Source: Bdellovibrionales bacterium
GTDB lineage: Bacteria; Bdellovibrionota; UBA1018
Direction of reading: 5' to 3'
Assembly: GCA_018266355.1 (NCBI GenBank)
Contig: JAFEAP010000029.1
Coordinates: 78,305 to 142,304, forward strand
Length of the DNA stretch: 64,000 nt
The notes beneath the pieces were generated by a model. That model saw only the letters and a list, made by a program, of their open reading frames with translations, ran no database searches and was not told where the DNA came from. Shown in pieces: positions 13,404 to 17,908 of the stretch (position 1 is the first letter of the stretch; every line of letters begins with the position of its first letter). The position numbers and the translations under genes are program-made.

Positions 13404-14510
13404 CTAGATCCGCATCGGCATCACGACGTAGGTGTGATTCGGCTGGCCGGCGCCCTTCAGGATGCCCGGGCTCAGGTGATCCTTGAAGTGGAGTTCGAGT
13501 TCTTCGACCGGGGTGACGGCGAGACACTCGAGGAGGTATTTCGCGTTGAAGCCGATCGAGACGGCGTCGCCCTTGTAGTTCACGTCGATCTCTTCCTTGG
13601 CCTCGCCGAGATCCGGGTTCGACGAGTAAACGGTCAATACGCCCGGAGCGATCGAGAACTTCACGCCTTTCGATTTCTCGTGGGCAAGCAAGCTCACGCG
13701 CTTCAGCGCGGAGTGGAAGGTTTCCTTGTCGATCCTCGCCATGCGATCGGTCGACTTCGGGATGACTTGGCGATAGTCGGGGTACTCGCCTTCGATCAGG
13801 CGGATGAAGAGGTAGCTCCCGTTCAGATGACCGAACACGTAGCCGCGTTCGAACGCGAGGCCGATCGTCGATTCGCCTTCGTCGAGGAACTTCCGGAGTT
13901 CGATGAGGCCCTTCCGCGGGATGATCACACCGCGTTTGAATTCCGGCATCGTCGAGAAAACTTCTCCGTCCATGAACGCGAGACGGTGGCCGTCGGTTGC
14001 GGTCATGCGCATGACATTCTTCTCGAGAGGCTCGAAGTAAACGCCGTTCATCAGGTAGCGAGTGGCATCCGTCGAAACGGCGAAGCTCGTCCGATCGATC
14101 ATTTCCTTCAGCCCGTCGATCTTCGCGTCGAAATATTTTTTCTCTTCGAATGCCGGAAGCGCCGGGTACTCGGTCGCGGCGAGCGACACGACTTTGAATT
14201 TCGATTTCCCGCAAACGATCTCGACCCAATCATTGTCTTTCTTCGAGATCTCGATCGGAGCTTGCGGGAGCTCCTTCACAATATCGAGGAGCGCTTTCGC
14301 GGAGAGGGTGATCTTTCCTGCGGAAGCTTTCTCCACGGGAAGGTTCATTTTCATGCCGACTTCGAGGTCGGTCGCGGAGACTGAGAGGGTATCCCCTTCG
14401 ACAGCGAACAAGACGTTCGCGAGAATCGGTACGGTGTTCTTCTTCTCCACAACGGACTGAGCTTTGCTTAAAGCTTCCAAGAGCGGATTGCGGTGAATGA
14501 TGAACTTCAT
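13404..14510 (-). CDS. dnaN: DNA polymerase III sliding clamp (beta subunit)
   Basis: Ring-shaped processivity clamp, 368 residues, with the three-domain clamp pattern. The N-terminus MKFIIHRNPLLEALSKAQ and C-terminus HTYVVMPMRI are both diagnostic. Start ATG 14510 with AGAGGG seven bases upstream. A perfect TATAAT on the minus strand at 14536-14531 predicts transcription from about 14524, giving a short leader. It heads the dnaN-recF unit, but dnaA is not immediately upstream: an unrelated gene and a 654-base non-coding stretch intervene. Confidence 0.97.
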   Translation of the reverse strand: MKFIIHRNPLLEALSKAQSVVEKKNTVPILANVLFAVEGDTLSVSATDLEVGMKMNLPVEKASAGKITLSAKALLDIVKELPQAPIEISKKDNDWVEIVCGKSKFKVVSLAATEYPALPAFEEKKYFDAKIDGLKEMIDRTSFAVSTDATRYLMNGVYFEPLEKNVMRMTATDGHRLAFMDGEVFSTMPEFKRGVIIPRKGLIELRKFLDEGESTIGLAFERGYVFGHLNGSYLFIRLIEGEYPDYRQVIPKSTDRMARIDKETFHSALKRVSLLAHEKSKGVKFSIAPGVLTVYSSNPDLGEAKEEIDVNYKGDAVSIGFNAKYLLECLAVTPVEELELHFKDHLSPGILKGAGQPNHTYVVMPMRI

Positions 14511-15164
14511 GGGTCCCTCTTAAGAGAAGAATTATATATATAAAAACTAGTCGTCATCATAGGGGCGGTGGATTTGGGGAAATCCGCGCCAACCCCACGT
14601 AACTCCGAAAGAAAACCCGGACCGAAGTCCGGGGATTTCCCCCGGGGATACTTTCCCGAAAACGGGGATGCTTTCCTAAGACCGTAGAATGACCATGGTA
14701 TCCCCAAGTTTTCAACTCACGAATGGGGACACCGCGAAGAAAACGACTCAATTCCTTCGGTATTTGGGCTGTTTTTGAAAATTTCGGGTTCAATAGCCGG
14801 ACTTTATCCCCGTGAGGAACGTTTCGTGGGGATCTTCAGCCTCGGGGATAAGTCGAATCCCCAGCCCGAAAACGGGATGGTCCGAAAAGCGTCGGCTTTT
14901 CAACCCCTTGGGCCGGAGCGGTTTGGGGATAACCCCGGAAGCCCCTTGGGGATGACTGGGGAATCTAAGGGGATAAAAGGGAAGTTATCCCGGAGGAATC
15001 CACCGGCATTCCACCGAAAAACGAATACCAGAGGGATTCCGTCGCAAGCGAGAGCAAACCCCTTCCGGAGAGTAAACGGAAATCACGGCAAAGTTATTGA
15101 AAAGACTAAACAAAAAGACGCGCGGTTCGTTAAGGGGCGGAAGAGAGCCTCCGATAAGGTGAGT
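14511..15164. other. Non-coding dnaN-side region with DnaA-box-like repeats (candidate oriC part)
   Basis: There is no convincing gene in these 654 bases. The octamer TTATCCCC or its complement occurs at 14804-14811 (+), 14844-14851 (-), 14925-14932 (-) and 14969-14976 (-), with TTATCCCG at 14985-14992 (+). Further near matches (GGGGAT core) are at 14631, 14644, 14664, 14699, 14828 and 14948. The consensus resembles the DnaA box TTATCCACA with C for A at position 7. An AT-only run (14531-14545) next to dnaN could be the unwinding element. Location beside dnaN and dnaA supports an origin role, but no function is shown. Confidence 0.55.
14531..14536 (-). promoter_or_regulatory. Minus-10 box of the dnaN promoter
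   Basis: Perfect TATAAT on the minus strand within an AT-only run (14531-14545). The region 17-18 bases upstream (TGATGA) is a weak -35. The predicted start at about 14524 leaves a 14-base leader containing the ribosome binding site. Confidence 0.5.
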
Positions 15165-16241
15165 ATGAAGCGAACCCTCCCCGCTTGGGGCAGTTTTCTC
15201 GCCCTCCTCATCCTCGCCGGATCGCCGAACGCCTCCGCGGGCGATCCGAAGTCCCAGGTCACCGTCGGCCTCGAGCTGGTTTTCCGTTTGACCACGATCG
15301 CCGCCGGCCAAGAAGAATCGATGGAAACCATGCGCGACGTCTCGACCTACTTCGGCGACCTCGCCGACGCGATCGAAAAGGAAATCGTCGGCAACCGGGA
15401 CCTTCCGATCACCTCGTTTCGGCGGAACGGACCGCGTGGGGATTTGATCGTCGAACTGAAAGGGGGAAAGACGCTTCGTTTCACTCAAGCGTCGACCGGA
15501 TTTGAAGTCATCGTTTCCGAGATGTCGTACGGGGAATACCGCGTCGCTACGCCGGTGATCCAAAGACTCGCCTACGACATCCCTTCCGCCGTTCCGCTCA
15601 AGGGTGGCGCTAAGGTCAGCTACGTTCCGAGCCCGTCCGAGCGCGGGACGATCACGCTCCAGTTCGATCCGTCGTTTCCGAAAGTTCCCGAAACGCGGAC
15701 GAGCGCGACGAACCTCATCATCGACTTGAACAACCATCTTCCCGTGATCGCGCCCGAGCTCGGAATCGATCAAAAAGACGCGAACAGCCTCCGGGATCAG
15801 GCGGACGAGGTCGCGCGGAAATACGAGAGCTGGCGAAAAAGCGCCGCGGAAATCGTCAACAAAGAGAACGCTACGGCGATCGACCTGATCCCGTCTTTCG
15901 ACGACCAGGTCTACAGCCACGCGTACACGCGGAAGGGCGTCGTGGAGATGAACGCAAACTCCGAACAGCTCGTCGACATCGACCTCTTCGGCCGGGACGC
16001 GAAGCTCGAAATCCGGGGATACATCACCCCGAAAGACGCGAAAACCGCGTTCGGGAATGCGACGGCGGCGACGATCGAAGCGAAGCGGTCGCTTCGCTTC
16101 TCGACGATGACGAAGACGCCGAACCTACGGCCGCTGCTGCCGAGCGGGATTCCCCCGAGCCAAATGAAGAAGATGTTCCTCGATTTCCGCTCGCTCGTGC
16201 GTTGTCCGGAAGTCGTGAAACTCTTTCAAGGCGAGATCTAA
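15165..16241 (+). CDS. Exported protein of unknown function between dnaA and dnaN
   Basis: Not recognised. It is a 358-residue protein with a classical signal peptide (MKRTLPAW, hydrophobic core, cleavage after NASA near residue 25). The mature region is mixed alpha/beta with a helical Lys/Glu-rich stretch near 215-245 and a Met/Lys-rich end. There is only one cysteine (near the C-terminus) and no transmembrane segment after the signal. Start ATG 15165 with AAGGTGAG upstream; the frame is open further 5', but that part is the repeat-rich non-coding region. Its TAA overlaps the dnaA TAG on the other strand (CTAA), so the two genes converge with no terminator between them. Its position interrupts the usual dnaA-dnaN neighbourhood. 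Confidence 0.8.
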   Translation: MKRTLPAWGSFLALLILAGSPNASAGDPKSQVTVGLELVFRLTTIAAGQEESMETMRDVSTYFGDLADAIEKEIVGNRDLPITSFRRNGPRGDLIVELKGGKTLRFTQASTGFEVIVSEMSYGEYRVATPVIQRLAYDIPSAVPLKGGAKVSYVPSPSERGTITLQFDPSFPKVPETRTSATNLIIDLNNHLPVIAPELGIDQKDANSLRDQADEVARKYESWRKSAAEIVNKENATAIDLIPSFDDQVYSHAYTRKGVVEMNANSEQLVDIDLFGRDAKLEIRGYITPKDAKTAFGNATAATIEAKRSLRFSTMTKTPNLRPLLPSGIPPSQMKKMFLDFRSLVRCPEVVKLFQGEI

Positions 16242-17725
16242 AGCAGGTTCTGGATGGCCTCGACGGCGTCCTTCACTTCCTGCTCGGAATCGATCTTTTT
16301 CTCGATCTCCCGGCAGGCGTGCATGATCGTCGTGTGGTCGCGGCCGCCGAAATAGTGGCCGATCTCCTTGAAGCCGAGGCTCGTGTACTTCCGGATGAGG
16401 TACATCGCGATCTGGCGCGGACGCGCGACCGAGCGCTGCTTCGAGTTCGACTTGAAATCGGCCGCTTTCAGCCGGAAATGCTTCGCGACCGCGGATTGGA
16501 TCGACTCGATCGTGTAGTTCGAACCCTGCTCCGGAACGACGAGCTTCAGCTGCTGTTTTGCGAGTTCGAGCGAGAGCTCGGCGCCCGTGAGGGAGGCGTG
16601 GGCTTGCAACTTGATCAGGACGCCTTCGAGTTCGCGGACGTTCGACTTGATGTAGGTCGCGAGGAACGTCGCGACTTCGTCGGGAAGGTAGATATCGTCC
16701 CGCTCGGCTTTCGCCTTCAGGATCGCGATCCGCGTCTCGATTTCCGGCGGCGTGATGTCGGCGATGAGACCCCACTCGAACCGGGTGCGGAGGCGCTCCT
16801 CGAGGCCCTCGATCTCCTTCGGCGGGCGATCGCTCGTGAGGACGATCTGGCGCTTCGAGGAGTGGAGGGCGTTGAAGGTGTGGAAGAACTCTTCTTCCGT
16901 GCGCTCTTTGCCGGCGATGAACTGGATGTCGTCGAAAAGAATGACGTCGTACGAATCGCGATATTTTTTCCGGAATTCCGTCGTTTTATGGTGCTGGATC
17001 GACTCGATCATCTCGTTCACGAAGCGCTCGGCCGAGATGTAGAGGACGCGGGCGTTCGGATTCCGGGCGAGGACCCCGTTCGCGATCGCGTGCAGGAGGT
17101 GGGTCTTCCCGAGGCCCGGCTGCGAATAGAGGAAGAGCGGGTTGTATTGGCGCGCCGGGTTTTCGGAGACGGCGAACGCTGACGCGTGAGCGAATTGGTT
17201 CGAAGCGCCAACGACGAACGAATCGAAGGTGTAGCGAGGGTCGAACTGAGTCGACTGGGACTGCGGCGAGCGGCTCATCGCGCCCCAAAGCACGCCGGAA
17301 TCGGGCAGCGGAGGAAGGCTCGCGGAGGTCGAGTCCGGAGCGGAAACGGAGCCGGTTTCCGCCGATTTCGGAAGGAGCGGCTCGGAGTGGGGTTCCATGG
17401 CCTCTGCGGCGCCGTCCGTCGGCGCGACGACGACGGAGAGGCTCGCCGGCTGACCGAGGATCTGGGTGAACGCCTGTTCGAGCTGGGGCTGAAAATGAGT
17501 CGCGATCCAGTGGCTCGCGAAGTCCGTTTGGGCCGCCATTTGGACGCCCATCACGTGAGAAACCCCGTCCGCACTCGGGATTTCCTGGATTCCGATCAGC
17601 CGAAGGGGGGCGATCCAGAGCTGAAGTTGTTGGGGGGTCAGGTTCCCTTCGGTTTCCAGGTGCCGATATACGGCACGCCAGACCTCGGGCCACTGGGAGA
17701 CGTCTTGCTGCAAGAGGGTTCGCAT
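16238..17725 (-). CDS. dnaA: Chromosomal replication initiator DnaA
   Basis: Binds DnaA boxes at oriC and melts the origin, 495 residues. Domain I is residues 1-90, followed by a long Ser/Pro/Ala linker (about 100-160). The AAA+ domain has Walker A at 201-208 (SQPGLGKT; the usual first Gly is Ser), Walker B ILFDDIQF, and sensor region LTSDRPPKEI. Domain IV carries the DnaA signature RPRQIAMYLIRKYT and GGRDHTTIMHACREI, the residues that read the DnaA box. Start ATG 17725. The upstream 183 bases contain further GGGGATA boxes, suggesting autoregulation. Confidence 0.97.
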   Translation of the reverse strand: MRTLLQQDVSQWPEVWRAVYRHLETEGNLTPQQLQLWIAPLRLIGIQEIPSADGVSHVMGVQMAAQTDFASHWIATHFQPQLEQAFTQILGQPASLSVVVAPTDGAAEAMEPHSEPLLPKSAETGSVSAPDSTSASLPPLPDSGVLWGAMSRSPQSQSTQFDPRYTFDSFVVGASNQFAHASAFAVSENPARQYNPLFLYSQPGLGKTHLLHAIANGVLARNPNARVLYISAERFVNEMIESIQHHKTTEFRKKYRDSYDVILFDDIQFIAGKERTEEEFFHTFNALHSSKRQIVLTSDRPPKEIEGLEERLRTRFEWGLIADITPPEIETRIAILKAKAERDDIYLPDEVATFLATYIKSNVRELEGVLIKLQAHASLTGAELSLELAKQQLKLVVPEQGSNYTIESIQSAVAKHFRLKAADFKSNSKQRSVARPRQIAMYLIRKYTSLGFKEIGHYFGGRDHTTIMHACREIEKKIDSEQEVKDAVEAIQNLL

Positions 17726-17908
17726 ACTGCCTACACCTACGGATTAAACCAGAGGTCGCGGGGATAGCATGGGGATAACTCGGAGACAACCGCGCCGCCC
17801 CGGAAGTTTCCCTGGGGATGGTTTTAGACGCACCATCTCGCTTGACGGCGCGGGGTGCCTTTGAGTAAACCCAAACCTCATTCTTAAAGGATTAGAGGTT
17901 TTTCGGTT
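17726..17908. promoter_or_regulatory. dnaA-rpmH divergent intergenic region with DnaA-box-like sites
   Basis: 183 bases between the divergent dnaA and rpmH genes. GGGGATAG at 17760-17767, GGGGATAA at 17771-17778 and GGGGATGG at 17814-17821 match the boxes seen near dnaN. Genes to the left run mainly on the minus strand and genes to the right mainly on the plus strand, so this is the strand-switch point expected at or near oriC. A possible rpmH promoter is TTGACG (17842-17847) with TAAACC 18 bases later. Confidence 0.5.

Follow-up and report, generated by a model that had tools for sequence, protein, structure and literature searches.

How does an ordinary DnaA protein go together with boxes that differ from the DnaA box? 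The question is raised by a 64,000-nucleotide stretch of a Bdellovibrionales genome (GCA_018266355.1, contig JAFEAP010000029.1, positions 78,305 to 142,304 of the forward strand; hereafter the window). Here the initial annotation had described octamers on both sides of dnaA as a candidate bipartite oriC, and had found their sequence puzzling next to a standard DnaA domain IV. We analyzed the gap on the dnaN side (14511-15164) and the gap between dnaA and rpmH, and compared both with those of relatives. The ~0.5 kb upstream of dnaN is very probably the chromosomal origin, as predicted from sequence, and the octamer TTATCCCC is best read as this lineage's DnaA box with C in place of A at position 7 (C7 and A7 boxes, respectively). 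The main interest lies in the comparative pattern rather than in the window alone.

A predicted origin upstream of dnaN

TTATCCCC occurs six times in the window (0.82 expected), a number reached in none of 100 shuffles. Four copies lie within 173 bases upstream of dnaN (14804-14811, 14844-14851, 14925-14932 and 14969-14976), one before dnaA (17771-17778) and one elsewhere in the window (62629). The enrichment claimed for this cluster was confirmed; its count was not, as four of the five supposed copies are exact and the fifth, at 14985, is TTATCCCG. The octamer indeed departs from the DnaA box at a single position, with A changed to C at position 7. Box tests were performed with the pattern TTATCC[AC]C, exact or with at most one mismatch, against 1000 Markov shuffles. 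The dnaN-side gap contains four exact sites (0.12 expected) and eight sites with at most one mismatch (1.98 expected), and no shuffle had as many in either case. The chromosome scan for box enrichment that the initial annotation had called for gave 52 copies of TTATCCCC in the whole 3.91-Mb assembly, compared to 27 of a reversed control pattern. TTATCCAC was not found before dnaN in the window. The features upstream of dnaN are as follows:

14530-14546, no strand: AT-only run between trios and dnaN, putative unwinding start (from sequence; same place in the relatives inspected)
14548-14562, plus: DnaA-trio array 5'-TAG TCG TCA TCA TAG-3' (place and register match the relatives' TAG repeats)
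14567-14575, minus: equivalent of box 7 of the basal unwinding system (BUS) of Bacillus subtilis, AAATCCACC (comparison with relatives)
14575-14583, minus: equivalent of BUS box 6, ATTTCCCCA, with C7; TTTTCCACA in congener G002 (comparison with relatives)
14643-14651, minus: near-match box GTATCCCCG (box-pattern scan)
14698-14706, plus: near-match box GTATCCCCA within a genus-conserved block (box-pattern scan, genus alignment)
14804-14812, plus: C7 DnaA box TTATCCCCG (octamer and box-pattern scan)
14843-14851, minus: C7 DnaA box TTATCCCCG (octamer and box-pattern scan)
14924-14932, minus: C7 DnaA box TTATCCCCA (octamer and box-pattern scan)
14947-14955, minus: near-match box TCATCCCCA (box-pattern scan)
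14968-14976, minus: C7 DnaA box TTATCCCCT (octamer and box-pattern scan)
14985-14993, plus: near-match box TTATCCCGG (box-pattern scan)

The AT-only run beside dnaN had been pointed out before and is present; the trio array and the two boxes at 14567-14583 are additional to that description. Read on the minus strand, ATTTCCCCA overlaps AAATCCACC, followed by GCCC, the triplets CTA TGA TGA CGA CTA, and the AT run up to dnaN. To the relatives we applied a module finder defined by CTA repeats (the complement of the DnaA-trios) and then an AT run. The comparison comprised 41 class regions upstream of dnaN, 33 of them read directly, and 80 phylum regions, three of which also belong to the class, giving 121 regions in total (44 from the class and 77 from elsewhere in the phylum). 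The finder matched 102 of these (42 of 44 and 60 of 77, respectively), with 2.0 and 4.8 matches in Markov shuffles. A stricter version, with three in-frame CTAs, matched 34 class and 55 other regions (0.8 and 1.9 when shuffled). The two class regions without a match are G033, which has just 82 bases, and G041, which has no CTA trio. In most upstream sequences inspected, tandem boxes precede the trio repeats.

The GC-skew check proposed earlier pointed to the same place. In samples from the sister genus (G025), skew inverts at dnaN, from -0.035 on the left to +0.018 on the right (9 and 11 sampled 20-kb stretches, respectively), with none of the 11 stretches on the right being negative. The window's own contig changes in the same direction (-0.012 and +0.017). 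Taken together, the box enrichment, the conserved module before dnaN and the skew inversion in the sister genus make the proposed identity as oriC very probable.

We also observed a block at 14680-14720, GTTGAAAACTTGGGGATACCATGGTC (minus strand), that is strongly conserved in the genus and is also present, with A/C changes in its box, in genus g21. Within it lie two boxes, one of them weak, and a CATGGTC stretch.

A and C at box position 7 and at trio centres

Position 7 of the boxes varies between A and C well beyond the window. Among TTATCC?C boxes in 43 class origins (G033 was omitted from box counts), this position is A in 227, C in 75, T in 3 and G in 2. With the window's genus set aside, single changes of the canonical box TTATCCACA were counted in 40 class origins; the most frequent was A7 to C (53, with 3 changes to T and 1 to G, and 159 exact boxes), followed by A9 to C with 43. 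In the 77 other origins of the phylum, A7 changed to C in 11 cases, to T in 2 and to G in none (94 exact boxes), and A7 to C is not the commonest change there. The three origins of the window's genus hold 3 exact canonical boxes, all in G002, and 6 C7 boxes TTATCCCCA; in many relatives TTATCCACA and TTATCCCCA coexist. As a separate observation on position 9, the boxes of L094 (G039), the one origin seen of its family, are mostly TTATCCACC, with C at position 9 in 16 of 22 sites.

Aligned boxes allow the exchange to be followed site by site. Across 13 close genome pairs (which share genomes and are thus not independent), the paired bases at position 7 were A/A in 101 boxes, A/C in 28, C/C in 19, C/T in 2 and A/T in 1, and G did not occur. 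G022 and G031 belong to the same genus and show seven A/C differences and one A/T difference between aligned boxes; their recognition helices are identical. From these aligned swaps with an unchanged recognition helix, one protein appears to use C7 and A7 boxes interchangeably. C7 boxes stand next to the trios in the window and in G001, and, as judged by eye, in G004, G008, G026, G049 and G052.

A second shift from A to C was found at the centres of the DnaA-trios. The window's trio strand (TAG TCG TCA TCA TAG) has C at three of its five centres and A at two. The paper that gives the order of the B. subtilis BUS searched for such modules by requiring three or more A-centred trios (3'-NAN-5') (PMC8287927); in the register of its flanking TAG trios, the window has two such trios of five. 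A first automatic count (top-strand T 170, G 19, C 11; 200 triplets from 40 genomes) was rejected, as its register was set too early in several genomes. We then restricted the recount to triplets flanked by two CTAs, a rule that leaves out the CGA of G006; G041 was omitted from the trio count. Inner trio centres in 42 class origins were A in 84 and C in 22 of 106 cases, with neither G nor T. A to C at the centre is a transversion; at the outer trio positions of the class, in contrast, transitions predominate (first position, 12 of 15 changes; third position, 4 of 4).

A DnaN tree was built from 39 rows, excluding G033; on it, the C-type label needs five changes, at least four of them forced by well-supported branches. 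Counting G006, which misses the strict rule, raises this to six changes with at least five forced. Outside the class, the same recount gave top-strand T 139, A 10, G 5 and C 7 (n=161). By eye, the rows of G164, G160, G089, G092, G162, G091 and G103 hold spacer or flanking sequence, explaining all seven C and six of the ten A. Five C-centred and four T-centred trios (G207, G186 and twice in G146) appear genuine by eye, and G228 has another top-strand A outside the count. The rule of A or C at the trio centre is strict solely within the class.

In B. subtilis, cytosine replaces the central trio adenine at a similar rate in vitro, and C at the trio centre is better than G or T in vivo; the replacement acts via an amino group that contacts Asn187 (PMC10721633). 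In passages of three papers on DnaA-trios, cytosine and oriC (PMC10721633, PMC8235120, PMC13220808), no report of natural C-centred trios was found.

A further array was seen in G041 (L201), ~75 bases before dnaN, where five successive C-centred trios adjoin ordinary A7 boxes. Their register was set by the distance to the boxes; shifted by one base, four of the five triplets become A-centred. With C-centred trios beside ordinary A7 boxes, the trio shift and the box shift may occur separately.

DnaA and the proposed loading by ATP-DnaA

Domain IV of the window's DnaA had been called standard, and the Pfam domains and kept contact residues agree. All 43 DnaA rows retain the D433 equivalent, and the Asn187 equivalent is retained in 42 of 42; both sets include the window's DnaA. 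Counted along the alignment, the window residues at B. subtilis Asn187, Ile190, Ile193, Arg202 and Glu228 are all the same. D433 and L438 are reported to be important for contacting position 7 (PMC8235120). At the position of L438 the rows differ (M in 14, L in 15, V in 9 and I in 5), with no clean link to C7 by eye. G022 and G031 have the same recognition-helix residues at C7 shares of 0.57 and 0.06, respectively. Genomes rich and poor in C7 are not told apart by these residues, and a DnaA residue as the cause of C7 was therefore rejected. The pairing of an odd box with an ordinary DnaA can be answered by the interchange of C7 and A7 in relatives, together with the published role of C7 as a mark of boxes preferring ATP-DnaA: C at position 7 is described as marking boxes bound only by ATP-DnaA in E. 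coli, Caulobacter and Helicobacter (PMC8235120).

Two side observations concern DnaA itself. G019 (dnaA in L068/L020) is the only one of 43 DnaA rows with the recognition helix DYST; the others have DHTT or DHST. Its origin (L098) has four ATCCCT(A/G) boxes and no TTATCC[AC]C in the 1.2 kb before dnaN, and on sequence the protein and its boxes look like a natural altered-specificity pair. Moreover, stretches resembling DnaA domain IV at 40-47% identity lie outside dnaA, three in G028 (G028:C3) and one in G032 (G032:C1). All but one of them are part of open frames of 285-302 amino acids. We take the stretches to be possibly transposase-linked domains.

As a whole, the explanation that we consider likely is an origin with a BUS-type module and C7 boxes, loaded by ATP-DnaA and opened by capture of A or C at the trio centres. 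Beyond the computed location, enrichment, conserved module, A-to-C interchange and kept DnaA contact residues, we infer binding by DnaA, preference for ATP and unwinding. The ordinary helix-turn-helix of DnaA would bind the C7 boxes, which, by analogy with E. coli, Caulobacter and Helicobacter, would be weak and prefer ATP-DnaA. As TTATCCAC is absent and even the unwinding module has a C7 box, loading of DnaA would take place mostly at high levels of ATP-DnaA. The filament of ATP-DnaA would then grow along the trio strand, capturing trio centres that are A or C and opening the AT run beside dnaN. Given the published tie of C7 to boxes preferring ATP-DnaA, the window's origin is probably loaded mainly by this form. 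We abandoned the broader claim of ATP specificity for every C7 box.

Several points weigh against this explanation. According to a review of E. coli oriC, positions 1-4 carry more weight for ATP preference (PMC6727663); the window boxes keep the TTAT of strong boxes at these positions, so TTATCCCCA may be stronger than the known ATP boxes. Hda scored above the family cut-off in none of 30 genomes, with a model that passes just 1 of 14 control genomes. T at trio centres also occurs outside the class. One of the nine stretches left of dnaN in the sister genus has positive skew, and the window's own contig gives a weak, noisy skew and has just ~93 kb on the left; the window's genome is a draft in 30 contigs. 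Finally, the share of C7 rises with the GC content of dnaA (rho 0.42, p 0.01, n=36, uncorrected for kinship), suggesting that part of the C7 shift may be composition.

The same correlation favors neutral drift in a GC-rich genome, which would make the C7 octamers ordinary, somewhat weaker DnaA boxes without regulatory meaning, and the fast turnover of boxes between congeners also fits. However, GC pressure should give changes from A to G as well, and G is nearly absent (1 of 57 changes at position 7 in 40 origins). Moreover, C7 is common in the low-GC genomes G012 and G049, and it is less frequent in boxes touching the trio array than elsewhere (8 of 64 and 141 of 454, respectively; Fisher p 0.002, with a looser box pattern than in the position-7 counts). 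We regard drift as a possible but unlikely account; GC content explains part of the C7 shift and was rejected as its full cause.

Returning to ATP-DnaA loading, both modes in which DnaA reads DNA, at box position 7 and at the trio centre, might obey one "amino base" rule, with A or C accepted and hardly G or T. The window's genus would have moved far towards C in both, leaving an origin almost without nucleotide-independent boxes and gated nearly wholly by ATP-DnaA. We put this forward tentatively, as a generalization more doubtful than the mechanism itself. The class origins nevertheless provide a natural mutational scan of both DNA elements that DnaA reads. The A-or-C trio centres fit the structural suggestion of amino-group capture from B. 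subtilis, in a distant lineage and through several separate changes. The A7/C7 swaps between sister species with the same recognition helix offer matched natural pairs for the effect of C7 on ATP-DnaA dependence and initiation timing. Note that such origins would be down-ranked or overlooked by searches based on TTATCCACA or on three A-centred trios.

The dnaA-rpmH gap, neighboring genes and known systems

The proposal of a bipartite oriC rested in part on octamers between dnaA and rpmH, where we found two sites:

17759-17767, minus: near-match box CTATCCCCG before dnaA, possible autoregulatory site (box-pattern scan)
17770-17778, minus: C7 box TTATCCCCA before dnaA, possible autoregulatory site (octamer and box-pattern scan)

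One exact octamer and an adjacent near match are present, but they do not form a cluster clearly above chance: one exact site compared to 0.02 expected (P 0.015), and two with at most one mismatch compared to 0.36 (P 0.052; 1000 shuffles). In a bipartite origin, box clusters flanking dnaA would loop together as described for B. subtilis. The tandem placement of the two boxes, 11 bases apart, speaks for such an arrangement, as does an excess in the dnaA-rpmH gaps of 40 relatives that is marginal, not nil (14 box-like sites in 6,419 bases compared to 8.5 expected; Poisson P 0.051). However, these sites are scattered over 13 of the 40 genomes, 12 of which have a single site, and the 250-base gap of congener G001 contains none. 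Furthermore, the unwinding module is on the dnaN side, and by eye the window's dnaA-rpmH gap has neither a trio array nor an AT run. A bipartite origin is not supported, and we consider it very improbable; on present evidence, oriC appears to be single. The box pair is better read as a possible site of dnaA autoregulation, and at most as a regulatory site. Still less credible is that TTATCCCC is the site of another protein overlapping the origin, such as a cell-cycle regulator: the base at which the octamer departs from the canonical box is indeed a contacted one, but its other seven positions are those of the DnaA box, boxes of this type stand in for A7 boxes at aligned places, and in G000 and G001 box 6 of the module itself is a C7 variant.

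The genes are ordered gyrB-recF-dnaN (minus), an orphan gene (plus), dnaA (minus) and rpmH-rnpA-yidC-mnmE (plus), and the flip of orientation reported at the dnaA-rpmH gap is present. Those adjoining the origin are:

13404-14510, minus: dnaN, DNA polymerase III beta clamp (Pfam PF00712, PF02767, PF02768)
15165-16241, plus: orphan gene outside the origin, between oriC and dnaA (N-terminus signal-peptide-like by eye)
16238-17725, minus: dnaA, 495 amino acids, with ordinary domains I, III and IV (Pfam PF00308, PF08299, PF11638; aligned to solved DnaA chains)

The orphan gene has no Pfam match at E 0.001 and, among loci L001-L103, is matched solely in the window's own genome. The corresponding gap of congener G002 (648 bases) shows no match to this gene. 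In relatives, dnaN and dnaA are often adjacent with 0.4-0.8 kb between them, and in many they are ~3 to 28 kb apart. In those inspected with dnaN and dnaA split, the boxes precede dnaN and do not follow dnaA.

A literature search for TTATCCCC together with DnaA returned co-mentions that, by title, all concern human genes or disease. Box degeneracy, W-boxes, C7 as a mark of ATP boxes and replacement by C in trios are known. Bdellovibrio bacteriovorus is presumably related to the window's lineage. Its oriC shares the box core TCC.C and relaxed first positions with the window; in contrast, its consensus, NN(A/T)TCCACA, has A at position 7 (PMC5124646). The W-boxes of Caulobacter crescentus and the ATP-DnaA boxes of E. 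coli and H. pylori have the same C at position 7 (PMC4285127, PMC8235120). Unlike these, the window boxes keep the full TTAT 5' half, and C7 is the sole full-length box class in the window, not a weak class accompanying strong ones. The closest layout is that of the B. subtilis BUS, in which two tandem boxes, a spacer, a trinucleotide array and an AT-rich stretch follow one another in like order; the window differs in the C at three of five trio centres and in a box 6 of the C7 type.

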